This document shows positions 1 through 29,351 of a stretch of DNA of 64,000 bases, in pieces. Position 1 is the stretch's first letter. Every line of letters begins with the position of its first letter. The notes under the pieces are model-generated. The model was not told the origin of the DNA, searched no databases, and worked only from the letters and a program-made list of their open reading frames with translations. The DNA lies in contig NZ_LOQG01000039.1 in assembly GCF_001517835.1 (NCBI RefSeq), forward strand, positions 1 to 64,000. Reading direction: 5' to 3'. Position numbers and translations under genes: made by a program. This DNA is from Caviibacter abscessus (GTDB taxonomy: Bacteria > Fusobacteriota > Fusobacteriia > Fusobacteriales > Leptotrichiaceae).

Positions 1-2790
1 TAAATCTATATTTGGATCTAGATTTTTTCCGTATAAGCTTACTTTTGCCGCTGATAAATCTGCAAATATATCGTAATTTGCATATACTCCATTTCTTTCT
101 ACTAATTCTACTCCAGCATCTACTTTCCCTTTTGTCCTTAAATTAAAGGCTTTATTCATATCTGTAAATATATCAAAATCTGAACTTCCTAGCAAATATT
201 TAAATTCCGTTTTATACATTATATTAACACCTGAAAATTCATTCTTATTAAATGCTACCGGTAGCTGAAATTCATTTCTTATCTCAAAGCTCTTATATGG
301 TCTATATGTTACCCCTATTTCTGGTGATAATATATTGTATATACTTCTCCATGAATTTTCTAATGGTTTCTTCTCTTTTTGTAAAGCATCGTCTGCATTG
401 AATTTTCTTTTTGAATTTTCTTTTTTCTTATCTTCAATTTTCTCCTTATTTTTAAACGCCTCATCTACTAGATGTTTCTCTGTAGTTTTACTTACATCTA
501 CAGATTTATCATTTAAATCTATAGGATTTCCTTTACTATCTCTTTTAACAACAGAAAGTTCATAATTTTTTCCATCTACCTTAAATGTTTCTGGCATTAT
601 ATATCCATATTCACCATAATGTGATAATCCTAAATCTATATCCCATTTTGAACCTGCTTTTATTCTGTATCCTAAATATGTTTGTGTTACTAAATTAAGA
701 TCCTTATATTTTAATACTATTTCTCTTTCTTTTTCCTTTTCTTTTTTATTTTTATTATTTTCAATATTTTTAACTTTATACTGTAAATTAATATCAGTGT
801 AAGTTGTATCTAAACTCGTTTGGGCTATGAAACCTTTATACATTCCTTGTACATTTATTCCTGCTGTGTGTTGGATTTTTGTAAAGTCTAATTTTTTGTC
901 ATCTGATTTAATATCTGTTCTATCATTTATTCTTGAATGTAGGTCAATTCTATATCCATTTCCAACATAACCTGCATTTAATTTTGCTGATATATTATTT
1001 GTTTGTTTCACATCTTTTATATCTTTTAAATCCGTTTTAATTTTTGCAAGTGTTTCTTCTACCTTAAATATATTTTTTTCTTTTTCACTTGCATGAAAGT
1101 ACATTGCTCTTGTTAGGTCTATTCCCCTCATCTCATATGGATTTTGCAATAATTCTGTTGCTTTTCCTAAAGCTTCTGGCACATTAAATATGTTTATGAA
1201 TTTAGTCCAACCACTTCCTTCTGTAAAATTTTTCGCTAAAGTTTGAAAACCATAATAATTTTCAAAATCTGGAAGTGAATAATTAAATAAATCTTCTCCA
1301 AGGTAATGCCAACGATTTTTTAGTTCATATTCTGCGTTAGATACCGTTAATGCTTGTGGCATTTCTGATTTTGGTTCTTTACTTGTTAAACTAAGTGATA
1401 GTGGTTTAGCTAAATTATTCGGTATTTTTGGATCATTATATGTAAATCCGTTGAAATATAGGTATGTTGGATCAAGTATTCCTGGATTTATTCCAAATAA
1501 ATCAAAGTTAGGCAATAAACCTGGAAATAGCTGTTTAAAATCATTTGGAACTTGTTTTATTAGTCCTAAATGTGAAGTTTTTCTTCCATATCCTATTCCT
1601 GCTCTATCTAGCATTTTTTGTGTTACTTTTGTTGCTATTAAGTTTATTGTAGCTTTATCTTTTGCTTCATTAATTAATTTTTGATATTGAAATCCATACT
1701 TAACACCTAAAGCTAAAATATTTGTTCCATTTTCAATATCTTTTAATAATCCTGAAATATGTTTAGTTTTATCATTACTATGTATCTCATCTAAAAAAGT
1801 ATTTACTGCTAATTTTACGGGGCTATCTCCAAATAATGAGCCTGAATAATATCCAAGTAGTCTATATGTTCCCTTATATCCTGATACTTCTGCTTTTTCT
1901 AAATCTGCTTTATCTTTTTCATATTCATTTTTAGTGCTTAAATTTACGTTTTTCTTCTCCCACTTCTTAAAATACTCTATTTTATCGTATCCAGGAGCTG
2001 CATATGATATATTTTCTATCTCTTCATTTACATCTAATTTTTCTCTATTGGTCGCAAATACCGGCCCTGCGTTAAAGTAAAAACCTTTGTATGCTCCTCC
2101 CAAACTTGGATTTATCTCTGCTCTTTTACCTTGTCCTCTTACATTTACAAAGGCTTGTATCGGATAATCTGCTAATGGATTAAATGTTACATTGTAGTCT
2201 ACTTCTTTATTCCCTATCTTGTCTTTCTCTTCTTCTATTTTATCTATTCCATACTTTTTCTTTTCTTCTCCAATTACGTAATACTTTAATGTTCCACTTA
2301 AATATTTATTCTCTGATGTTAATGTTAATCTTAACTTATCTATTTCATTTTTCTCAATAAAGTTTTCGTAATCATTATCTTTTCCTATTACATCTAATCC
2401 TAATCTTAATCCAAAATAATCTTCACTAAGTTTTATTCCAAGTCTTTTTCTAAACTTGTATTCTTTTGATATATATCTTATTGCTAAGTCTAAGTCTCTA
2501 TTTTCTGGATATTTTGGTAAATAGTAATTCCTCGATGTTTGTTGTGCTGTTTCTCCTACACTTTGATTTTTCGGTTCTTTCTTTTTGTCGTAATCTTGTA
2601 CTTTTTTTGCAAATATTAGATCCATTGCTGGAAATGCCATTCTTGATACCCTCTCTGCTGCGTCTGCTCCAAAATGGGTATCAATTCCAAAGGTAATTTC
2701 TGCCTTTACCTTGTCTTCAACCTTTGTATATGTCATCGTCGATGCACTTAATGCCGCTAATGACAGTAGTAATTTTTTATTTTTCTTCAT
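1..2790 (-). CDS. Large exported, probably outer-membrane protein (C-terminus cut by window edge)
   Basis: The frame is open without a stop for 930 codons from the ATG at 2790 to the window edge. The protein begins with a lysine-rich n-region and a hydrophobic stretch (KKLLLSLAALSAS), which looks like a Sec signal peptide. The rest alternates polar and aromatic residues in short strands separated by Gly/Asn/Asp turns, for example around SAKLNAGYVGNGYRIDLHS, which is typical of beta-rich outer-membrane or surface proteins. A Lys/Glu-rich charged segment lies at about residues 670-690 and another at about 785-810. I do not recognise the family. The C-terminus, where an autotransporter or porin barrel would be diagnostic, is missing. 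A TATAAT box lies about 45 bases upstream of the start. Confidence 0.75.
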   Translation of the reverse strand, partial: MKKNKKLLLSLAALSASTMTYTKVEDKVKAEITFGIDTHFGADAAERVSRMAFPAMDLIFAKKVQDYDKKKEPKNQSVGETAQQTSRNYYLPKYPENRDLDLAIRYISKEYKFRKRLGIKLSEDYFGLRLGLDVIGKDNDYENFIEKNEIDKLRLTLTSENKYLSGTLKYYVIGEEKKKYGIDKIEEEKDKIGNKEVDYNVTFNPLADYPIQAFVNVRGQGKRAEINPSLGGAYKGFYFNAGPVFATNREKLDVNEEIENISYAAPGYDKIEYFKKWEKKNVNLSTKNEYEKDKADLEKAEVSGYKGTYRLLGYYSGSLFGDSPVKLAVNTFLDEIHSNDKTKHISGLLKDIENGTNILALGVKYGFQYQKLINEAKDKATINLIATKVTQKMLDRAGIGYGRKTSHLGLIKQVPNDFKQLFPGLLPNFDLFGINPGILDPTYLYFNGFTYNDPKIPNNLAKPLSLSLTSKEPKSEMPQALTVSNAEYELKNRWHYLGEDLFNYSLPDFENYYGFQTLAKNFTEGSGWTKFINIFNVPEALGKATELLQNPYEMRGIDLTRAMYFHASEKEKNIFKVEETLAKIKTDLKDIKDVKQTNNISAKLNAGYVGNGYRIDLHSRINDRTDIKSDDKKLDFTKIQHTAGINVQGMYKGFIAQTSLDTTYTDINLQYKVKNIENNKNKKEKEKEREIVLKYKDLNLVTQTYLGYRIKAGSKWDIDLGLSHYGEYGYIMPETFKVDGKNYELSVVKRDSKGNPIDLNDKSVDVSKTTEKHLVDEAFKNKEKIEDKKKENSKRKFNADDALQKEKKPLENSWRSIYNILSPEIGVTYRPYKSFEIRNEFQLPVAFNKNEFSGVNIMYKTEFKYLLGSSDFDIFTDMNKAFNLRTKGKVDAGVELVERNGVYANYDIFADLSAAKVSLYGKNLDPNIDL

Positions 2791-3216
2791 GTTTTTTCTC
2801 TTTTCATTTTAATTTTTTTGTTTTAATCGCGTTTATTATATCATAATAAAAAAACATTTTATAAAAATTTATCTACCACTAATTTTACCAATATGTGAAA
2901 CTTACTAACAAAAAAAGTAGGACTTCCATCTTTTAACATGCAAAGTCCTAACACTTTTATTGCCATAATTTAATTGTATTTGTTGATTTAAAAATTTTCT
3001 CTGAAAATTAAATAATATAAAAAAATAAATACAAGATTGAAAAATTAAAAGAAAATTTATAAAATATATCTTTAACTAAATCAAAGTTTCTATTGAAAAC
3101 AACTTTACATCAACTATTTTCCTGAACCTGAAGCTCTCATAATTAATATAAATTCAAAGTCATCTATTTTGATATTTAACTTTATAAATTTTTGTCAATA
3201 ATATTTATGTGTTTTA
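2791..3216. other. Intergenic region with a -10 box and an unassigned hairpin
   Basis: AT-rich spacer between the surface-protein gene and the end of the PTS/aldolase locus. A minus-strand TATAAT at 2835-2840 probably serves the surface protein, but no good -35 is visible. An inverted repeat pairs 2913-2925 with 2943-2958 (core AGGACTT/AAGTCCT), with a loop of about 17 bases. No open frame or recognisable gene remnant was found in the rest. Confidence 0.4.
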
Positions 3217-3250
3217 TAAAAAAACTTCCACTCATTATTATGAATGGAAG
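3217..3250 (-). terminator. Intrinsic terminator of the PTS/aldolase locus
   Basis: Read on the minus strand, an 11-bp stem (CTTCCATTCAT with AUGAGUGGAAG, one U-G pair) with a 4-base loop is followed by a run of seven T. It lies 15 bases past the stop of the aldolase gene. Confidence 0.8.
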
Positions 3251-3264
3251 ATTTCATTAATATT

Positions 3265-3969
3265 TTATATAATAGTATATCCTAACCTCTTAGCATCATC
3301 AACAAACATTTGTACTGTTTCTTTCGATATTTGTTCTAAATCTTTCCCAAATTTCGAATACTTCAATATTAAATCTTTTGTAACTGTTATTATATCTACT
3401 CCAAGTTCATCTGCTTGAACTATATTATAAGCTTCTCTTGGACTTGCCCATAAAAGTTCTACTCCATTTTTTCTATTACATATTTCTTTTGCTTGTTTCA
3501 TATAAATTGTAGCATCTCTGCCTGAATCAGATATTCTTCCTGCAAAAACTGAAACTATATTTTTAGTACCATCTTTAAAACAATTTACAGCAAGTTTAAC
3601 TTGCTCAAGCGTTAATATAGCTGTTATATTTAACTTTATTCCCTTATTTGATAAATACGTTATAACATCATTTGAATAAACTCCTCTTGAATCCATTATT
3701 GGAATTTTTACATAAACATTGTCTCCCCAAGATGATATTATCTCAGCTTCTTTTTTCATAGTTTCAAAGTCATCTGAAAATACTTCAAATGATATAGGAA
3801 CATCTTTTATATTTTCTAAAACTTTTCGTGCAAATTCCTCATAATTTTTTATTCCTGCTTTTTTCATTAAGCTTGGATTAGTTGTAAAACCTTTGATAAA
3901 TGGATAATTATTGTAAAGTTCTAACATATCTTCTAATATTGCACCATCTGCATATATGTTTATACTCAT
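3265..3969 (-). CDS. Transaldolase / fructose-6-phosphate-aldolase family protein
   Basis: A 234-residue TIM-barrel aldolase of the small transaldolase/FSA family. It has the N-terminal IYADGA strand, the TTNPSLM motif, the VYVKIP strand carrying the expected Schiff-base lysine, and the ELLWASPREAYNI segment seen in TalB-like and FSA-like enzymes. Family members cleave or transfer three-carbon ketose units from sugar phosphates in the cytosol. It is the last gene of a locus with Ula-type PTS genes, 5 bases after the EIIC gene, so its substrate is probably the phosphorylated product of that transport or a derivative. It is intact although the regulator, EIIA and EIIC upstream are broken. A second, shorter paralogue lies at 46531-47184. 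Confidence 0.85.
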   Translation of the reverse strand: MSINIYADGAILEDMLELYNNYPFIKGFTTNPSLMKKAGIKNYEEFARKVLENIKDVPISFEVFSDDFETMKKEAEIISSWGDNVYVKIPIMDSRGVYSNDVITYLSNKGIKLNITAILTLEQVKLAVNCFKDGTKNIVSVFAGRISDSGRDATIYMKQAKEICNRKNGVELLWASPREAYNIVQADELGVDIITVTKDLILKYSKFGKDLEQISKETVQMFVDDAKRLGYTII

Positions 3970-3974
3970 TTTTA

Positions 3975-5328
3975 TTACTCACCTTCTTCAATATAATTAA
4001 TAACATTTGATTTAGTTTTAATAAAATTAGGAATTATTAAAATTGCAAGAATTATAACCACTATTATATATATTCCTAAATTACCTATAGTTCCAAATTT
4101 TCCTAAAAGTATTCCTAAAACTCCAAAGTCTGAATCTCCAAATGTTGTATTTGCAAATCCCAATTTCCCTAGTACAGGTAATAATAAAGCAGGTAAAAAT
4201 GTAATTAATAAACCATTGAAAAATGAACCAATTATAGCTCCTTTTTTACCTCCTGTTGCATTTCCATATATACCTGCTGTTGCTCCGCAGAAAAAATGAG
4301 GTACTAAACCTGGTATAATCAAAATGGAACCTGAAAAACCTAAAATTAACATTCCTATTATTCCACCTAAAAAACTAAATATGAATCCAATTATAACAGC
4401 AGTTTGTGCATATGTAAAAAATACAGCACAATCTATTGCCGGAATTGCATTAGGTATTACTTTTTTAGCTATACCTTGAAATGCAGGGATTAAATCAGTT
4501 AATATCATTCTTACACCTGAATAAACAATAGTAACTCCTATAGCAAATTTAAATGATGTCATTACTAAGAAAACCAAAGGTGGCTGACCATCAGAAAGAG
4601 TTAAAACAAATGAAAAGCTCGCAACTAAACCACACACTATTTAAAATATTAACATTGTTATAGCAGTTGATATAGTTGTATTTCTTAAAAATCCAAATTG
4701 TTCAGGTATTTTGATATCTTCTGTACTTTCTTTTGAATCTCCAACTTTACTTCCTATGAATGCAGATAAATAATATCCTAAACTTCCAAAATGTCCCATA
4801 GCTATTTCATCATTATCAGTTACTTTTAAAGTATAATTTTGACCAATAGCTGGCGATATTGCAGACCAAGCTCCTAGGAAAAATCCACCTAATAATATTA
4901 ATGAATAGCTTCTAAATCCTAATGCACCTAAAACTGCTGATAATAAACATGCCATAAAAAAGCTATGATGTCCTGTTAAAAATACATATTTATATTTTGT
5001 AAATCTAGCTATTAATATGTTTATAATAAGACCTGTAACTAATATTGACATTGTTTCTATACCAAATAATTTTTGTGCTGTTGCAACTACCGCTTCATTA
5101 TTTGGTATTACGCCACTAATCTTAAATCCATGTTCTATTAATTTTCCCAAAGGATCTAAACTAGATACAATAGCTCCAGCTCCTATTCCAAGCATTATAT
5201 ACCCTAATATAGGTCCTAAAGTTCCCACTAATATTTCTAAGTGAAACTAAACCTATTAACGAAACTATACCTAAAAGTAATGCAGGTTCCTTTAATATAT
5301 CTCTTAAAAAACTAAGAAAATGACTCAT
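3975..5328 (-). pseudogene. Ascorbate-type PTS EIIC (UlaA/SgaT family), broken twice
   Basis: The remnant clearly follows UlaA: GVVPNNEA-like, LTGHHSFFMACL, MGHFGSLGYYL, GLVPHFFCGATAGIYGNATGG and LGFANTTF segments are all present, together with many membrane helices. The ATG at 5328, with a GAGGAAAT Shine-Dalgarno sequence, opens an N-terminus (MSHFLSFLRDILKEPALLLG). That frame runs into a net frameshift near 5235-5250, where about five family residues also appear to be missing. The second frame ends at an in-frame TAA at 4641-4643, where the family has an aliphatic residue, and then continues in the same frame to 3975. A working EIIC would need both lesions bypassed. The family imports L-ascorbate or a related sugar acid; the substrate here is not known. 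Confidence 0.85.
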
Positions 5329-19430: not shown

Positions 19431-20468
19431 TCAATCATCATAAAAAAATTCTTTTGCTATATTGTCCAACTGTTGTGCAATTTCACTAAATTCACAATCA
19501 AGATTAAGTGTTCTTACACTTATCTTGTTTCCACTCATTTTATATGTACTCTTTGGAATTATTAATTCATCCGTTTTTGCATATAAAATCATTCCTGATA
19601 CTTGGTGATCAGTATCTAAAAATTCTAATTCTTTATTCTTTACATAAGTAAAAATTTGATATAAATTACCTGAATGAATTGTATGGACATTAAAGTGTGA
19701 CTGTGTAATTTTAGAATAATATTTAGCATCAATAATCAATACTTTATTTCCTTTACTAAGTGTAATGTCAGTTTGCATAACCGGTAACATATCATCGATT
19801 CCATCATCTAATTGCCATGGTATTTGAGAAGCATTTGCTTTAAGTTTTGGATGCTCTTTACGATAATATTCTAAAATAAATCTTTCATAGAGTTTACACA
19901 TTCTTTGCTCATCTATAAACTCCATCATTTTGGTATTACCTTCATTATTTGTCTGAAGTAATCCTTTAATGACTAAATAACAAATAGAAATTAACATTCT
20001 ATAAGTCTGATTATTTCTATTATACTGTTGGTTCCAATTTATTGTATAAATATCAATGTCACTCACTTCATCTAAGAAAACAAGTAACTTTTTAAGTTCT
20101 TTTTTCCTATTTTTAGAAATATCTGCATGTATTAAAAATTTTATTGTTGCTTTAATAATTTGATTCATTTTAGAATCAACTGAAAAATCATCATACGTAC
20201 AAATCATTCTTCCTTTATACATAGACATTGTTTTTATAGATTCTGATACATCTATTTTGCCTCGTAAAGATGATAATACTTCCGTTTCAGATATATACTC
20301 TCTGCCAATTCCTTTCTTTAATTGTACCGATACACCCTTTGATAAGATAGCCGCATATAACTCTGCAACATTATTAAATCGTTCATTAGCCATATTCTTG
20401 TAGCCATTTTCATTCAAAACTTTAAAAGCATATGATAACATGTAATATACATTCCTTACTGGTATCAT
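19431..20468 (-). CDS. McrC-like subunit of a type IV McrBC restriction system
   Basis: A 345-residue protein that starts MIPVRNVYYMLSYAF, the N-terminal signature of McrC-type proteins, which bring the endonuclease to McrB. The C-terminal half has a PD-(D/E)XK nuclease core with LPVMQTDITLSKGNKVLIID and, directly after, AKYY: the aspartate of QTDI and D-x-K of IIDAKYY are the expected catalytic residues. It overlaps the McrB-like gene by 4 bases. Together they would cut modified DNA in a GTP-dependent way. The sites recognised cannot be read from the sequence. Confidence 0.88.
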   Translation of the reverse strand: MIPVRNVYYMLSYAFKVLNENGYKNMANERFNNVAELYAAILSKGVSVQLKKGIGREYISETEVLSSLRGKIDVSESIKTMSMYKGRMICTYDDFSVDSKMNQIIKATIKFLIHADISKNRKKELKKLLVFLDEVSDIDIYTINWNQQYNRNNQTYRMLISICYLVIKGLLQTNNEGNTKMMEFIDEQRMCKLYERFILEYYRKEHPKLKANASQIPWQLDDGIDDMLPVMQTDITLSKGNKVLIIDAKYYSKITQSHFNVHTIHSGNLYQIFTYVKNKELEFLDTDHQVSGMILYAKTDELIIPKSTYKMSGNKISVRTLNLDCEFSEIAQQLDNIAKEFFYDD

Positions 20469-22624
20469 TTAATCGATCTCCTTAGATTTTCTGACCAATC
20501 TTTTACTTTAAATAGTTCATCAAACCAGTATTCTTTTAACATTGGTATAAGTTCATACTCTACAATATTCATAAGTATTTCATCATTTATTTCATTTAAA
20601 TTGCAAAAATAGCTATGTCCAATACAAAAACCTTCACCTAAGGACTCATCTGAAGAAATAACATAGTTAAGATTTTCAACGCAATTGATTAAAGAGTTAA
20701 ATTTATTATCATCAAAAGTCATTCTATATTTTCTAAATCCATCTGTATCAAAACCTGGTCTCATTTCATAGAATGCAAATCTTCTACGCAATGCATAGTC
20801 AAGCATTGCTAAACTACGGTCTGCGGTATTCATCATACCAATAATATATACATTTCTAGGTACAAAAAATTTTTCATCCGAATATAAAAGTTGCAATGCA
20901 TTTCCACGTTTATCGCTCTCTATAAGCATAAACAATTCTCCAAAAATTTTACTTAAATTACCTCTATTAATTTCATCAATTATGAAAAAATAATCTTTAT
21001 CTAAATCATCTGCTGCTCTTTTACAAAAATTATAAAAAGAGCCTTTTTTAATATCAAAATTTCCATTTCCTATGGGTCTAAATCCTTCAATAAAATCTTC
21101 ATAAGAATAACTTTGATGAAACTGAACCATCATAACTCGTTCTTGATCTTTACACCCCATAATAGAATATGCTAAACGTTTGGCAGCAAATGTTTTACCA
21201 ACGCCAGGTGCTCCTTGAAGTATTACATTTTTCTTACTTTTAATTAAACCTACAAGTGTATTATATTGATCATTACTCATAAATACATCTTCAAGAAATT
21301 TTGCTTTATCATATACAGGATAAACTATATCAGGAGTTTCATCTTCTACTTTTTCTATTTCGTCATTGTCAAATAAAATCCTTAATTTTTCTATATATTC
21401 TGTATACACAGTAATATCTGTTAATGTCTTCATAACAACTTGACCAGGATGTAACCATTCTCCTTTATGTGTCCAATTTACTTTACGAATATTTTTATAA
21501 TCATCTTTACGTTCAGAATCAAACACATAATCAGACTCAACAATTCCTCTTCCTATAAGTTGATACGTCCCTTTTTTTACATATACAATATCACCTATTT
21601 TCATTTCGTTTGCAAATTGCCATGTAGCAAGAGCTGTATTTCTATAGCTTTTAGTTGGGTCATAAACTTTTTTTAATTCCATTTTCATTTCATCTTTTGA
21701 ATTAAATAAAGATAAATCACCAATTTCACTCCAACCAATAGCCATCACTCCAGTATCATAAAATTCTTCCCACATATTTGAATTTTCTCCAGGAGAATAT
21801 ATCCAATAATGAATTGTGTCTACATCATCATCTGCAAGTGCCTCGCCTTTTTCATCCCGCTTAGCCTTATTTTTTTCATTAACTTTATTTGAATAATTCC
21901 ATGCTGCAAAAGATAATTCTTTAAAATCTTTTAGTTGACTGCTATCACTTTGAAGATAGGTTTTAATTTTTTCAGAAATATCAAAATAATTCTTAGCTTT
22001 AATTTTTGATTTTATCTTAGGTAAATTCATAATAACTTCTTCAGGAATTTTTTTAGTTTCATAAATATACCATTCATTTTTTCTATCAAGATTAAGAAAT
22101 ACATTCGGAGAAATCCAATAAAGACCCATTGTAACTTTACTATTATCATTTCCCTTTTTGTTAATAACTATATCAAAGTATTTTGATACAATACTACGAT
22201 TTTCTTCAGATGGATTTTCTGAATATTTTAGAGCACTTTCAAATAATAACCATAATTCATTAATATCATTTTCTGATACATCATTAAAAGAATAAAAAGT
22301 TGCGTTTTGATTATTAAGAACTGGTATACTGGCAAATGAAGTGGGTATATTGACATTAATTTGTAGTTTTTTAACAAATGATGATATTATTTTAACCCTA
22401 TTAGATTCTTTCATAGAACTCTTATTAAATAGTCCAAAAACTGTAAATGGATCAATATCTATAATATTATTGTCTTTTTCAAGTGTTGGCATATTGATAT
22501 CTATTTCTTCATAAATATTTTTAATTATATCAATTAACTCATTACGTTTATTTTTATATGCCAATAAACTATTAGCAAACGCCTTATAAAAATCCACCCA
22601 ATCAAATATATTGTTATTATCCAT
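20465..22624 (-). CDS. McrB-like AAA+ GTPase with an EVE domain
   Basis: A 719-residue protein in three parts. Residues 1-250 are an unassigned helical region. Residues about 271-415 form an EVE/PUA-like domain (IHYWIYSPGENSNMWEEF, MAIGWSEIGDLS, GDIVYVKKGTYQLIGRGIV), a fold that reads modified cytosines and is found in McrB-like proteins. Residues 450-719 are the McrB AAA+ domain with Walker A GAPGVGKT (471-478), Walker B FFIIDEINRG (546-555) and the McrB signature MMNTADRS (597-604). The EVE module suggests recognition of modified DNA or RNA bases. It is transcribed with mcrC from a strong promoter 144 bases upstream. Confidence 0.9.
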   Translation of the reverse strand: MDNNNIFDWVDFYKAFANSLLAYKNKRNELIDIIKNIYEEIDINMPTLEKDNNIIDIDPFTVFGLFNKSSMKESNRVKIISSFVKKLQINVNIPTSFASIPVLNNQNATFYSFNDVSENDINELWLLFESALKYSENPSEENRSIVSKYFDIVINKKGNDNSKVTMGLYWISPNVFLNLDRKNEWYIYETKKIPEEVIMNLPKIKSKIKAKNYFDISEKIKTYLQSDSSQLKDFKELSFAAWNYSNKVNEKNKAKRDEKGEALADDDVDTIHYWIYSPGENSNMWEEFYDTGVMAIGWSEIGDLSLFNSKDEMKMELKKVYDPTKSYRNTALATWQFANEMKIGDIVYVKKGTYQLIGRGIVESDYVFDSERKDDYKNIRKVNWTHKGEWLHPGQVVMKTLTDITVYTEYIEKLRILFDNDEIEKVEDETPDIVYPVYDKAKFLEDVFMSNDQYNTLVGLIKSKKNVILQGAPGVGKTFAAKRLAYSIMGCKDQERVMMVQFHQSYSYEDFIEGFRPIGNGNFDIKKGSFYNFCKRAADDLDKDYFFIIDEINRGNLSKIFGELFMLIESDKRGNALQLLYSDEKFFVPRNVYIIGMMNTADRSLAMLDYALRRRFAFYEMRPGFDTDGFRKYRMTFDDNKFNSLINCVENLNYVISSDESLGEGFCIGHSYFCNLNEINDEILMNIVEYELIPMLKEYWFDELFKVKDWSENLRRSIK

Positions 22625-23139: not shown

Positions 23140-24152
23140 AAGTGCAACACTAATAATAGCCCATAGAAATAGACTATGTTAAAATGTAAGTGACCAAACA
23201 AACATTTTAAAAGAGAATATTCTATGAGCTATACACATCTTACCACAGAAGAGAGAGATTGTGTCTATCAATTTATTAATTTAGGAATGAGTATCCGAAA
23301 AATTGCCACAGCTCTACACAGCTCCCCAAGTACAATTTCTAGAGAGATTAAACGAAATTCATGTACTTCAAAGAATGTTCATGCATCGTTTACTAAGTAT
23401 TTCCCAATCCTTGCAAATAATAAATATCGATGCCGTAGGCACCTAAGTAAACGAAATAATAATTTGATGAGTGTTCATTAAAATATGTGGAATCAAAACC
23501 CTTAGAACATTGGTCTCCCGAACAAATTTCACATCGGTAAACTGATGCAATAAACTTTATCCCCTTTACTTCAACAATCTACCGTTTCATTCAAAGGAAA
23601 GTTTAAGAGACCCTCGGAAAAAAAGTGAAGTTCAATGATAATAGTAGAACAATAAAAAAATTGTCCAAAGGAAGTATTTAAACGTGAAGAATTGGGTCAT
23701 TGGAAATGTGACACCGTAAAGTCTGGAAGAATTAAGCTCGTATTGTTTTATTACTTTAGCGGAAAGAAAATCGATATTTTATTTGGCTATTCTGGTAAAA
23801 AATCAAACAGAAAACATAGTGACAAGGTCTATAATAAATGCTTTGAAAAAGTTTCCGAAAGAGTTGGTAAAGACAATAACTTTTGACCTAGGAAAAGAGT
23901 TCGCGGGATATATAGCACTTGGATTGCAAAACATATTTTTGTGATCCTTATTGTGCATGGCAGAAGGGTACAAACGAAAACTCGAATGGATTACTGCGAG
24001 AATTTTATTCCAAAGGAATGAATTTATCCTATGTAAATGTTGAAGATCTAAAACTAAATTTGGAAAAACTAAATAACAGACCAAGAAAATGTATCCAATA
24101 CAAAACACCTAATTAAGTACTTTTTCGGTAACTTACATTAGGTGTTGCACTT
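23140..24152 (+). mobile_element. IS30-family insertion sequence, inactive remnant
   Basis: The ends carry matching inverted repeats, AAGTGCAACAC at 23140-23150 and GTGTTGCACTT at 24142-24152, giving an element of about 1.0 kb. The plus strand encodes an IS30 transposase in pieces. The N-terminal helix-turn-helix is MSYTHLTTEERDCVYQFINL then SPSTISREIKRN (from 23224). A DDE core follows (ELGHWKCDTV, and later NENSNGLLREFYSKG) to 24116. At least three stops or frameshifts split the frame (about 23481, 23540-23640 and 23886), so no active transposase is made. No target-site duplication was identified. Confidence 0.8.
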
Positions 24153-24515: not shown

Positions 24516-26753
24516 CTACTGATGGTTAGACAACACTTTTACATCATTATATATTTTATATAGATACTTCAATGACATATCGAGAATTGGCTCAAACATA
24601 AATGAATTCAAATGGATATTTTCTGGTGTTATCATTGCTACAATCTCTAAAATATTCATTGCATCATCATTTATATACTTTTTATACGCTTTGATAAGCC
24701 ATGCACTCTGATTTTTTTTGCTGAATACATCTTTCAATATATCATGTCCATTTGATAAATCAGATATTATTTTATTCTGCATATATGACTCGCCTATCAA
24801 TCTTATTGCCATAGATAAGATAAGTTTATTCTCAATTTCCAACTTTTCTATATCTGTAATTTTTTCGCTTTCTTGAATTAAAATATTATACACTAATTCA
24901 TTTTCTCTACCTACTGCAAATGTAGCAGGTTCTTTTTTGCACCAATATTTATTAAAAATATCTTGAATTTGATTTAAAGTAATCTTTTTTGTATTCTCCT
25001 TGCAATGCAAAACACTTGTAAGAGTCAAGTAGTCTTCATTATCATCACCTTCCGTATATTCAATTAGGTTACGAACAAACGGTATGGATGCAACCATAAT
25101 ATTATCACTATATTTTTTAACCAGACTATTTTTATAGTACATGAAAATATTTTTTGTATACTGCCCTTTTTCTAATTTTATTTTGTCTGAATCTACAAAA
25201 GCTATAAAAGAATTACTGCGTTTTGTGATTCTCGAAGATACTGTTCTATAAAAATCAAAATTATGTGTTAGTAATAAAATTTTAAATAATTTTTCATCAT
25301 TTGTATCAGTGTATTCCGAAATATCACTAATATACTCTATAATTGCATATTTATTTTTGTAATCAAAAGATTCAGAAATATCATCAAGTATAACCAAACA
25401 TTCTTTACCTTGTTTTTTTGCAACTAAGATTTGAAAAATCATATTTAATATATAGTATGCCCTACGCTCACCTGTACTTAAAACATCAAGCAAATTATCT
25501 TTCGTTACTTCTTTTTTCCCTCGATCATCCGAAAAAATATATTTAAAACTTGGTAATTCCATATTCAAAATAACATCTTCCTGATTCGATGGTTCAATTG
25601 AAAAAGGGACAAAAAATCTTTCTTTAAATAAATCTAACGCTTTCTTCCAATCTGTGACTTGTTCCCTTGCTTCATCATACAATTTCTTTAAATCTTTTTG
25701 TGCTTTGTTATAATTATCTAGCAATTCATCTAGTAAATGCTCATAATAAAGAAAAGCTTTAACCCACACTTTTTTCTTGAATAAATCTATATCTTTATAC
25801 TCTACGATTATATCTTGATGGGTTTGTAAGAAGGTATTAAATGCTTGTGTATCTTTGTTTTTACTGATTGCTTTGTTGATTTTTTCGAATAAATCCTTAA
25901 TTTCCTTTGAATCTAGTACTTGTTCTTTTTCTTTTTTTATAAGATCATCTAATTCCTTTTGCTCTTTTAATGTTATAGATGCACTTCCGTCTTTAGCTTT
26001 TAGTATAACCTCATTATTGGCTGCAAAAAAGCCGTTAGTATTCAATGCATTACTTATATTCCCATAATTATTGTGGTCAATAATACCTTGTTGCATATAT
26101 AGAGATTTGGCAACCAACTCTCTGTACTTATTTTCATACGCTTCTATTAATTCTCCTGTTTTTCCAGTTTTTATCATTGAGTAAACTTTGTCATTAAATA
26201 ATGAAGCATACTCCAAATCATCTTCATGTAATGAGCAAACCATTGCTGGATTGTGTAGTAACTCTTTTATTTTAATTAAACAATCATATTCTTTCTTTGA
26301 TGTTAACTCCCAATCATTCAGCATGGTATTTTTAACATCGAAATTATTGCGAGTTGAATACCCAAACTTCTCTTTTATTTTACTGTACAATGATTCTTTT
26401 TTAGACTCTATTGAATCATGGATACTTAGATATGCTTTTCTCAAGGACTCGTTAGCCATCAATAATCCCTGACCTTCATATGCATTTTCATCAAATGGGT
26501 TTATTACTATAATTTTATCTTTTAAAATTGCTACATTATCTTCATCGAAAATATTACACAAACTCTTTAATCCATATATTTTTTCCTCAACTTGCCTGTC
26601 ATCTCTTATAGCTTCAAATGTTTTTGCCAATGAAGACTTCATTGTGCCATTTGGTGCATAGATAATAGCAACATTATTATTTGAATAATCAATAGTTTCG
26701 TTCATTTTCTTAATTCCATAACAATTTTCCAATTCTAGCTTTAGTTCTTGCAT
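24516..26753 (-). CDS. ABC/SMC-like ATPase with atypical P-loop, possible defence protein
   Basis: A 745-residue protein with a split ABC-type ATPase. The P-loop is APNGTMKSS (33-41), where the usual second glycine of NGxGKS is methionine but the lysine is kept. A long helical region (about 100-390, with Lys/Glu-rich coiled coil near 260-370) is followed by the signature LSTGERR (425-431), Walker B CLVILDD (452-458) and the switch region LLTHNFDF (494-501). The C-terminal 240 residues are helical and unassigned. The layout resembles PrrC/RloC-type and other AAA_13-like proteins of prokaryotic defence. The start has an AAAGAAAGG Shine-Dalgarno sequence. Two decayed genes lie directly upstream on the same strand, one PD-(D/E)XK-like, suggesting a former three-gene operon. 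The activity is not known. Confidence 0.7.
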   Translation of the reverse strand: MQELKLELENCYGIKKMNETIDYSNNNVAIIYAPNGTMKSSLAKTFEAIRDDRQVEEKIYGLKSLCNIFDEDNVAILKDKIIVINPFDENAYEGQGLLMANESLRKAYLSIHDSIESKKESLYSKIKEKFGYSTRNNFDVKNTMLNDWELTSKKEYDCLIKIKELLHNPAMVCSLHEDDLEYASLFNDKVYSMIKTGKTGELIEAYENKYRELVAKSLYMQQGIIDHNNYGNISNALNTNGFFAANNEVILKAKDGSASITLKEQKELDDLIKKEKEQVLDSKEIKDLFEKINKAISKNKDTQAFNTFLQTHQDIIVEYKDIDLFKKKVWVKAFLYYEHLLDELLDNYNKAQKDLKKLYDEAREQVTDWKKALDLFKERFFVPFSIEPSNQEDVILNMELPSFKYIFSDDRGKKEVTKDNLLDVLSTGERRAYYILNMIFQILVAKKQGKECLVILDDISESFDYKNKYAIIEYISDISEYTDTNDEKLFKILLLTHNFDFYRTVSSRITKRSNSFIAFVDSDKIKLEKGQYTKNIFMYYKNSLVKKYSDNIMVASIPFVRNLIEYTEGDDNEDYLTLTSVLHCKENTKKITLNQIQDIFNKYWCKKEPATFAVGRENELVYNILIQESEKITDIEKLEIENKLILSMAIRLIGESYMQNKIISDLSNGHDILKDVFSKKNQSAWLIKAYKKYINDDAMNILEIVAMITPENIHLNSFMFEPILDMSLKYLYKIYNDVKVLSNHQ

Positions 26754-26814
26754 TTTATAAACCTTTCTTTTTTATTTAAACATTTCTAAATTTTAGGTAC
26801 AATAGAATGGTTAT

Positions 26815-27287
26815 CTATCCCATCTTTAGTGACATCCCATCTGGCAACTTTAATTTTTTTAATTCTTTTTCCGCTTCCATAATCAAGCAAATCTTCTCTA
26901 TTAAATTATTAAAAACTTTTTTCAGACTACCCAAACAACCAGAGGATAATAGATATGCTTCTGCAGAATTGCAAAATTTACAATATATTAATAATTGCCC
27001 TAAGTTTTGATAATTTAAAGCTGTCTTTTTTGCTTCAACAAGATAAATTTCGGCTCTATCTTTCTATTTTACAATTCCTAAAACATCAATTTCAATTTTC
27101 AATCCAACAACTGGTTGATAATATTGTATCACATCATATTTGTCTAAAATTGAATCCAAATATACAAAATGACAATCTAGTACAAATACTTCTCACATTT
27201 TGTTTTTAAACTTGCCTTTAAGTATGTATTTAACCATTTGCACATACCTAGATATAAATCAAATTCACTTCTTATGTTATTCACCAT
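26815..27287 (-). pseudogene. Decayed PD-(D/E)XK nuclease-like gene
   Basis: The ATG at 27287 opens MVNNIRSEFDLYLGMCKWLN, which shifts frame near 27185 and continues as VLDCHFVYLDSILDKYDVIQ. The next part has the motif EIDVLGIVK, a TAG stop (about 27067), then AEIYLVEAKKTA. The D-x(n)-ExK pattern and the following QNLGQLLIYCKF helix fit a PD-(D/E)XK nuclease core. A third lesion lies near 26910. The ATG overlaps the stop of the gene upstream and the gene ends about 60 bases before the ABC-like ATPase start, so the three were probably co-translated. Confidence 0.6.
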
Positions 27288-27785
27288 ATCCCAACTCCTT
27301 TGCTAATTGAGTACATGAATCAAAATGCTTACCTATTATTTTTTCATGCAAGCTATCATCATTTTCCATAAGATGAATAGACTTATTTATTAACCTGACA
27401 GGTTTTTCCCAGTAAAATTGATGCGTTTTATTTTTGTCTAAATAATCAAGCAGTTCTTCAACATATCTTTCTAACGCCCTTTACCTATGAACAATATTAA
27501 ATCCTATAGGCAAAAATTAATTTTCCCATATCTTTACTTTATGTTCCTTTTTCCAATAATTTGGTTTACCTTCCTTATATTTTTTTAAATTTAAATCTCT
27601 AAAATTTGGATGTCCAAAATCTATTATCTGTACTGGTAGTATATCTAATGTTTTCAGCATATTAACTATATCAATAACAAATTGCCAATTACCTGGTATC
27701 TCGATATATAATACTCTGTGACAACTATATTATCCAAAAGCAATATTACTATTTCTAATGTATCCTGTTACATAAGTTTTGACAT
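27277..27785 (-). pseudogene. Decayed gene of unknown function, first of a three-gene set
   Basis: One frame reads KTYVTGYIRNSNIAFG, a stop, YSCHRVLYIEIPGNWQFVID, LKTLDILPVQIIDFGHPNF, KEGKPNYWKKEHKVKIWEN, a stop, and LERYVEELLDYLDKN through LAKELGYGE. It has three in-frame stops and probably a one-base shift at its start codon (27785). I do not recognise the family. Its terminal TAA overlaps the ATG of the PD-(D/E)XK-like gene, a translational-coupling arrangement. Confidence 0.5.
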
Positions 27786-27849
27786 AATTATCCTCCAGCT
27801 CTATTATTATATCATTTTTATTATAACATATAAATATAACTTATAACAG

Positions 27850-28985
27850 ATTCTTTTTTCTCATTTTTTTCTTTCTCATTCATATTAACTTTCAGATACT
27901 CCAATTCCCCATACTATACTAATAATGAATTATGTTTCTTGGCAATCTCCTATTATTTTACCTGTAAATTCTTAGAATGCTCATTCAATTTCCTGAAAAG
28001 ATTTTTACCTGATTTTGTCTTCAACTCTCCTAACCTAAAGTGTGGAAATTGCTTAAGAAAAATATCTATTTCCTCATAGGATTTTCTGATAGGCTTCCAC
28101 ATCTTTTCGGTTCATCATCATATAAATTTTATCATTCGGATTTTTACGATACCCCCTCGTAATATTCTCTTTTGCTAATACAGATTTGAATATGCTTAAC
28201 TATTTCCTTTATCCTCTTTTGTTCCAATGAAAGTTTATAAATTTCTCATTTCAATTCATTTTTTGAAATGATATTTTTTGGATTCCTTTTTCCAATGCTT
28301 CCATAAAATTAAAGCCTTTATCCCTTATTTTTAATAAAATTTTTGATGCTACTTGCATGTTGGTATGAACTACCCCAATCCTGATTTTCGTATTTCGTTT
28401 TATCAACAAACTCTCCTATTTCATTGTCTTTATTTCGGATTCTTTCTTTAATTTTTTCTTCTGTGTAATTAGTCCATATAGTTTTCGCTCTGGTAAATCT
28501 CTACTGATTTTTTTGTTTGAAATGAATATCATATCCATATTGTTCCATTATTTTAAGAAAATGTTCCCAGTTTATTGCTCTCTATCCATATCAAATTGAA
28601 GCCTTGATTTATAATTGTTTCCCTTTTTATCTTCATTATTGTCATCCCAATTCACAAATTTTCTTCGCTTAATTTCATTGATTTATCTTTACGTTTCCAC
28701 ATCTATTACTGATAAATTATATTCCTTGCGAAGTCTATCACTTTGATTTCTGATGTCCATGTATGAACCATAATAGGAATGATAAACTTTGCCCTTATCA
28801 ACAACTATGGAATTATAAATGATGTGATTATGGATATGGTTTTTGTCTATATGAGTAGCTAAAACATATTCATATTCCCGCCTAAAATCTTTTCACAGAG
28901 TTCAATTCCAACTTGATGTACTTCTTCAAAACTGACCTCTTCCGGAACAAATAATTGCACATTCGGTCTTTCAAACATGAGAGAT
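27850..28985 (-). pseudogene. Conjugative relaxase (MobA/VirD2-type), decayed
   Basis: The minus strand carries relaxase pieces in order: LFVPEEVSFEEVHQVGIELC, then after a frameshift REYEYVLATHIDKNHIHNHI with IYNS, the three-histidine HUH metal site. These are followed by SYMDIRNQSDRLRKEYNLSV, KSRLQFDMDR, FVDKTKYENQ and NPNDKIYMMMNRKDVEAYQK. More than six stops or frameshifts break it. The N-terminal end is missing at the junction near 28985. It is the last trace of an integrative or mobilizable element; no integrase was seen. Confidence 0.75.
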
Positions 28986-29012
28986 TTTGTATTATTTATA
29001 TATGAACTGGCT

Positions 29013-29351
29013 ATGACAAAAGAAATAGGGTTTAAAATAATTGTGAAAGACAAATTCCCCAATAATGACATTGAAACCGATGAAAATAAGTGGAATGTTA
29101 ATCTTGTATTTTATGGTAATGACAAAGAACTTCCGTTTAATGCTAATGTATGTAACACCTTAAAGTAACTATCGGATAATCTGTTCGACTTAGAGTCCTA
29201 CTCTATTACAAAAGAGCAATTTGATTCCAGTAAAAATAAATCTGTAGAATATTACTCTCTATCACTAACACAAAAAGAGTTTGAAGAACTTTCAAGAGAT
29301 GAGATTATAAAAAAGAAAATTGAATATCTGAAACAAAATAATTTGCTGTAA
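29013..29351 (+). pseudogene. Small plus-strand gene with one internal stop, unknown function
   Basis: The ATG at 29013 opens MTKEIGFKIIVKDKFPNNDI and continues to VCNTLK, where TAA (29166-29168) interrupts. The same frame then runs on (LSDNLFDLESYSITKEQF ... KKKIEYLKQNNLL) to a second TAA at 29349-29351, for 111 sense codons in total. The acidic, soluble composition and the small genes after it would suit an immunity or antitoxin protein, but I do not recognise a family. Confidence 0.4.

Follow-up and report, generated by a model that had tools for sequence, protein, structure and literature searches.

The window, by which we mean the whole 64,000-nucleotide stretch of Caviibacter abscessus DNA that was analyzed, carries on its minus strand (24516-26753) an intact gene for a 745-residue ABC/SMC-like ATPase, with an uninterrupted reading frame of 745 codons, as the first-pass annotation had stated, and a single copy in its own genome (1.22 Mb, 40 contigs). 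The ABC signature LSTGE (residues 425-429, 25467-25481), the Walker B segment CLVILDDISESFD (residues 452-464, 25362-25400), and the switch histidine in LLTHNFD (residues 494-500, 25254-25274) are all kept, as had been claimed, and in an alignment of 85 family members the L, S, G, and E of the signature, D457 and D458 of Walker B, and H497 of the switch are invariant (85/85 each). The P-loop, APNGTMKSS (residues 33-41, 26631-26657), does contain the methionine pointed out earlier (NGTMKS, with Met at residue 38), but this is not peculiar to the window copy: the position is Met in 76 of the 85 aligned members, Leu in 9, and Gly in none. A decay mutation of the window copy is thus ruled out, and the Met/Leu substitution is a fixed trait of the family, not damage. 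Furthermore, dN/dS between the window ATPase and two copies 89-90% identical to it is 0.13-0.19, indicating that the gene is kept by purifying selection.

The sequence of the ATPase is RecF/SMC-like, and no solved homologue was found by profile search; single-sequence matches to a tape measure protein were rejected as chance coiled-coil similarity. A whole-protein model predicted with AlphaFold2 on the family alignment (pLDDT 88.6) retrieved Rad50, SMC/cohesin, Lamassu LmuB, and retron/Septu PtuA ATPases in a fold search. In the model the protein ends in an all-helical C-terminal domain (residues 534-745, 24519-25154, minus strand), which we presume to be the effector.

With respect to the surroundings, an intact pair of McrC-like and McrB-like genes lies at 19431-22624 on the minus strand (Pfam McrBC, E = 5e-37; AAA_5, E = 4e-24), and between this pair and the ATPase there is a broken IS30-like transposase (23224-24116, plus strand) with a SISREIKRN-type HTH start and later pieces that are out of frame, so that the McrBC and IS30 neighbors named in the first-pass annotation are confirmed. 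The middle part of the McrB-like protein also matches the PADLOC PDC-S02 and REase_II models. On the other side, a relic of a relaxase/mobilization protein, ERPNVQLFVPEEVSFEEVHQVGIELCEKI, is found on the minus strand at 28859-29071 and beyond, which suggests from its sequence an arrival on a mobilizable element. One ATPase copy in another genome (L014) has a NikA-like mobilization gene upstream.

Two broken genes, here called A and B, precede the ATPase on the same strand, as had been reported. The relic of gene A (27286-27771) is interrupted by stops and frameshifts and corresponds to codons 129-290 of about 292, and the relic of gene B (26786-27287), a PD-(D/E)XK-type protein, contains frameshifts and an in-frame stop. 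Compared with intact homologues at locus L104, relic A shows 57% identity over 164 amino acids (E = 8e-57) and relic B 40% identity over 100 amino acids (E = 3e-18), while both together are 87.8% identical at the DNA level over 992 bp to locus L247, from a genome (G095) of the same family as that of the window. Two of the boundaries proposed earlier had to be moved: homology to A begins at codon 129 (window 27771), the MSKL start at 27785 belonging to another gene, and B ends with a TAG at 26786 instead of at 26815. The proposal of coupled translation holds, since A and B overlap in the window and also in the intact pair (by 8 bp); 32 bp separate them from the ATPase downstream. The PD-(D/E)XK-like core read in relic B likewise proves sound, with EID...VEAKK matching the invariant I-D...E-A-K of intact homologues, among which the D...ExK of PD-(D/E)XK nucleases is invariant. 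Neither relic has a match in Pfam or PADLOC, and for gene A even the intact copies have none in Pfam or PDB; two LAGLIDADG-like motifs can be made out in A by eye (LLGMIxGNGEI and LRGIADVTGYIR), which may make it a hitherto undescribed subunit of a restriction enzyme.

Matches in other genomes reveal what these relics are. They match two Lactiplantibacillus plantarum plasmids, where A corresponds to residues 129-290 of a 292-amino-acid protein, B is the next gene, and both follow an EcoRI-methylase/C5-methylase fusion; no ATPase gene of this kind is present on these complete plasmids of 6.5 and 8.8 kb. Two phage contigs carry two methyltransferases together with A and B (L106, 1652-5185; L107, 3814-7364), two gut phages carry a methyltransferase, A, and B (L248, 355-4165, with an HTH controller in front; L249, 609-4110), and G095 has a damaged version of the same trio (L247, 4672-7626); the methyltransferase-A-B cassette of L104 spans 690-4316. 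Cassettes with gene A and without the ATPase occur in six other independent places, with A intact in five and broken in G095. The cassette order is HTH controller, methyltransferase, A, B, and a variable tail gene, which as read from sequence is a PHP/TrlF-like ATPase in G095, DUF262-like in L248, and a set of small genes in L249, with GIY-YIG or no gene at all also among the variants; in the window and in an Atopobium locus (L024) it is the ATPase described here. The relics in the window are homologous to A and B, overlap, and stand in the same order, and the two broken genes are therefore the restriction half of a separate restriction-modification (R-M) cassette.

The upstream edge of relic A shows how this operon broke. 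Window positions 27769-27868 (minus strand) align with positions 331-431 of a Veillonella locus, L019 (72% over 104 bp), which cover the promoter and the initial MSKL codons of the HTH controller heading a C5-methyltransferase/LlaJI-type R-M operon, while homology to A stops at 27773, placing the junction of a controller-A deletion at about 27769-27773. The L019 operon also ends in a copy of the ATPase gene, 89.5% identical in DNA to the window copy. No methyltransferase match was found in the window, and elsewhere in its genome there is only a distant C5 methylase. The simplest account, judging from these alignments, is that an internal deletion took out the body of the controller, the methyltransferase, and A up to codon 128, and that the ATPase is the surviving tail gene of a former R-M operon.

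The first-pass annotation could not match the three genes to any named system and had suggested running defense-system finders. The relics belong to an R-M cassette, and the ATPase matches over its full length the PADLOC family PDC-S46, a single-gene phage defense candidate (E = 1e-227, residues 1-741 to profile positions 1-718 of 719), with its residues 262-598 also matching the sister family PDC-S06. According to a paper on archaeal immunity, PDCs are candidates of one gene each that emerged from a "guilt-by-embedding" screen and for the most part lack experimental validation (PMC12988326); we found no published function, mechanism, or phage-protection assay for PDC-S46 and no paper naming the family. 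Homologues were retrieved by tblastn on 25 plasmid records and on one phage-like contig, and a scan of a genome collection gave at least 428 confirmed loci, with nine loci on viral contigs. The 25 plasmid records and the at least 428 genome loci show the same ATPase architecture without the two partners. The distribution within the phylum is patchy (3 of 98 genomes, one of them a weak, interrupted fragment), and DNA of the ATPase at 89% identity is common to distant taxa. The two closest copies, in Veillonella (L019, 6001-8221) and Atopobium (L024, 6001-8225), have one frameshift each, unlike the window copy, which reflects either real decay or assembly error. On one Pseudomonas contig, PDC-S06 and PDC-S46 genes lie about 18 kb apart (L209, G144:C56:60968-63079, and G144:C56:42083-42574), an arrangement consistent with a defense island.

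Among 80 ATPase loci examined, no common neighbor was found, and immediate neighbors differ in every close relative of the window ATPase. After clustering of neighbors within 4 kb, none of the families is present at more than 7 of about 85 loci, and those that recur resemble type I R-M genes. Summed across Pfam families, R-M proteins belonging to type I, II, or III account for at least about 20 of 115 immediate neighbors, with S and M subunits of type I, Mod and Res of type III, HsdR, DpnII, and MmeI among them. There is thus no fixed partner, in line with a single-gene family, and only R-M genes recur; a linked PtuB HNH nuclease is likewise absent as a recurrent partner. The relic pieces and intact A and B were compared by tblastn with all (about 90) other ATPase loci and are absent from them, except for a 37-amino-acid stretch of B beside the ATPase in Atopobium L024, a locus about 89% identical to the window in DNA over 2.4 kb. 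The first-pass annotation had proposed a three-gene defense system and a search for intact A and B genes beside the ATPase; none was found, the ATPase standing without these partners at about 90 loci, which is the outcome that the annotation had named as refuting its proposal, and gene-A cassettes standing without the ATPase in six other places. The ATPase is not tied to A and B, and the window copy is an intact gene under selection that belongs to a large single-gene family. Taken together, the family assignment, the solo status, and the identity of the relics are held with high confidence. The defense-island setting and the probable defense role of the ATPase that had been suggested earlier are both supported by the PDC-S46 match and the frequent R-M neighbors of its relatives, and on these sequence-based grounds such a role is likely.

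How the ATPase might act is suggested mainly by its relationship to RloC. Against the RloC-type AAA_13 profile it scores 97.4% in hhalign (E = 1.4e-11), and family members reach PF13166 at E = 1e-11 to 1e-12, so that kinship of the ATPase head to that of RloC is significant at the level of sequence profiles. The C-terminal domain behaves differently: on its own it reaches RloC at E = 0.085 (hhalign), with some column shuffles scoring higher, and a second, narrower segment test was negative. Fold searches of PDB and BFVD with its predicted structure (AlphaFold2, pLDDT 92.4, pTM 0.90) gave nothing significant; no HEPN-like match was found in either, and no PDB hit fell below E = 0.18, in a search run without a RloC-domain positive control. 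Conservation within the domain is strong, with R561, N562, H583, R651, H714, and N716 invariant in 85 members and two near-invariant glutamates, E565 (83/85) and E655 (84/85). Two profile alignments, of which the second falls short of significance, place the R561-x3-E565 pair (25059-25073; R 85/85, E 83/85) on the R-x3-E of RloC, and the candidate active-site histidine H583 (25005-25007) is present in 85/85 PDC-S46 and 4/6 PDC-S06 proteins. An alternative histidine, His714, lies in the ENIHLNSFMFEPILD motif (residues 711-725, 24579-24623), in which H714, N716, F718, M719, E721, P722, and D725 are invariant (85/85). The candidate active site could be R561/E565/H583 or R651/E655/H714. In RloC, mutation showed the triad Arg692/Glu696/His737 to be essential for tRNase activity (PMC2610378), and the PrrC and RloC domains have been assigned to HEPN (PMC3710099). 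The E-to-His spacing is 17 or 58 in the ATPase versus 36-52 in RloC and 31 in PrrC, and no CxxC zinc hook occurs in its 745 residues. A motif-based reading of the C-terminal domain as a proven RloC-type nuclease was downgraded by the shuffle-controlled profile tests and the empty fold searches. Because of the negative domain-only tests and the lack of a HEPN-like match, we state that the ATPase may work like RloC and PrrC and do not file it as a member of that group.

The explanation we favor, with moderate confidence, is a solo PDC-S46 defense ATPase that was once the last gene of an R-M operon and whose mechanism may resemble that of RloC and PrrC. The ATPase would act as a second line of defense: two subunits would dimerize via ATP-binding heads of the Rad50/SMC type, enclosing a ligand that arises during infection, for which DNA ends, replication intermediates, or an anti-restriction event are candidates. 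Binding of ATP, with hydrolysis that is probably slow because of the Met/Leu in the P-loop and the Asp where Walker B would otherwise have Glu, would then release or order the C-terminal helical domain. This domain, in which Arg and His residues are invariant and Glu residues nearly so, may cleave RNA, possibly tRNA, and would in that way halt translation and phage growth in the manner of RloC and PrrC. An RNase or tRNase as the C-terminal effector is by itself a tentative assignment, made by analogy. It is doubtful, though conceivable, that PDC-S46 represents a new class of single-protein abortive-infection effectors in which an ABC clamp with a fixed Met/Leu Walker A is switched by the binding of ATP and not by its turnover, the effector is a new all-helical RNase or other toxin domain with no relation to HEPN, and the gene often occupies the tail slot of R-M operons as insurance against anti-restriction.

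The best whole-model neighbors (Rad50, cohesin, LmuB, and PtuA) would suit an SMC/Rad50-like sensor acting on DNA, with a C-terminal domain that would bind incoming DNA, cut it, or bring in a nuclease of the host, in the manner of Lamassu, Septu, or SbcC. These fold matches, however, stem from the head and the coiled coil of the ATPase, no gene for a nuclease partner is seen repeatedly beside it, and the C-terminal domain has no DNase motif and is unlike any known DNase, so that we regard action on DNA as rather unlikely. Slightly less probable still is a guard like PrrC, silenced by R-M proteins and released once a phage disables them; in its favor, the ATPase gene comes last after different R-M operons (window, L024, and L019) and lies inside type I R-M loci, as for prrC (PMC3710099), but most family members are not beside an R-M gene, and in the window an intact ATPase under purifying selection stands next to a dead R-M partner, which makes a strict dependence on the window R-M system unlikely. 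A non-defense ATPase for DNA repair or plasmid maintenance, hitchhiking in islands, would fit the RecF/SMC-like sequence and the fact that no experimental proof of defense was found; it is improbable given the patchy distribution in the phylum (3/98 genomes), the 89% DNA identity across distant taxa, and the presence on plasmids and phages and beside R-M genes. The weakest reading, a dedicated and now decaying system of A, B, and an ATPase that activates the nuclease effector B, has in its favor the A/B overlap 32 bp before the window ATPase and the B remnant in Atopobium L024, by which the linkage predates the window genome, but A and B are missing at about 90 other ATPase loci, six other gene-A cassettes have a methyltransferase and no such ATPase, the tail gene after B varies, and the ATPase is intact where A and B are dead, which refutes it as a general system and leaves it very improbable here.

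With the favored solo ATPase, a false three-gene system can be struck from the list, and there remains a large candidate defense family whose P-loop departs from the Walker A rule in all members examined. The cassette tail slot, filled by different defense genes in different genomes, is a handle for finding more such genes and raises the question of whether tail genes guard the R-M system.

Compared with known systems, the Septu/retron PtuA and Lamassu LmuB ATPases share with PDC-S46 the ATPase head and coiled-coil fold, but they need partners (PtuB HNH; the LmuA nuclease and LmuC), none of which recurs at PDC-S46 loci. PDC-S06, a single-gene ATPase with matches on 908 plasmid records, mostly from E. 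coli, is a homologue of PDC-S46, with an hhalign alignment of 546 columns that takes in the R-x3-E region (E = 3e-14); it differs in its canonical NGTGK[ST] P-loop, in a replaced H583 equivalent in two of six proteins, and in a diverged C-terminal end (NETYHIENEF). An identification of PDC-S06 with IbfA was ruled out, the latter being a 518-amino-acid ATPase-TOPRIM protein (PMC12111858). On one E. coli IncF plasmid (L239, 1-1537 and 3001-5139), a PDC-S06 ATPase lies 1.5 kb from an AAA ATPase of IbfA size (518 amino acids). RloC and PrrC (AAA_13, PF13166) share with PDC-S46 an ABC head interrupted by a long helical insertion, the Walker B Asp-Asp (VIDDPVSSLD in RloC), a C-terminal helical domain after the switch His with a similarly placed R-x3-E, and linkage to R-M genes, whereas PDC-S46 has Met or Leu for the P-loop Gly (85/85), lacks the CxxC zinc hook, has another E-to-His spacing, and shows neither significant nuclease-domain homology nor a HEPN match. 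For the relics, the type II-like R-M cassette of L. plantarum plasmid p9 (methyltransferase fusion, A, and B) is the source type of both; the window version has lost the methyltransferase and codons 1-128 of A, and its A and B are broken. The window ATPase itself corresponds to PDC-S46 in size, P-loop, signature, Walker B, and C-terminal motifs, and differs from it in nothing essential.
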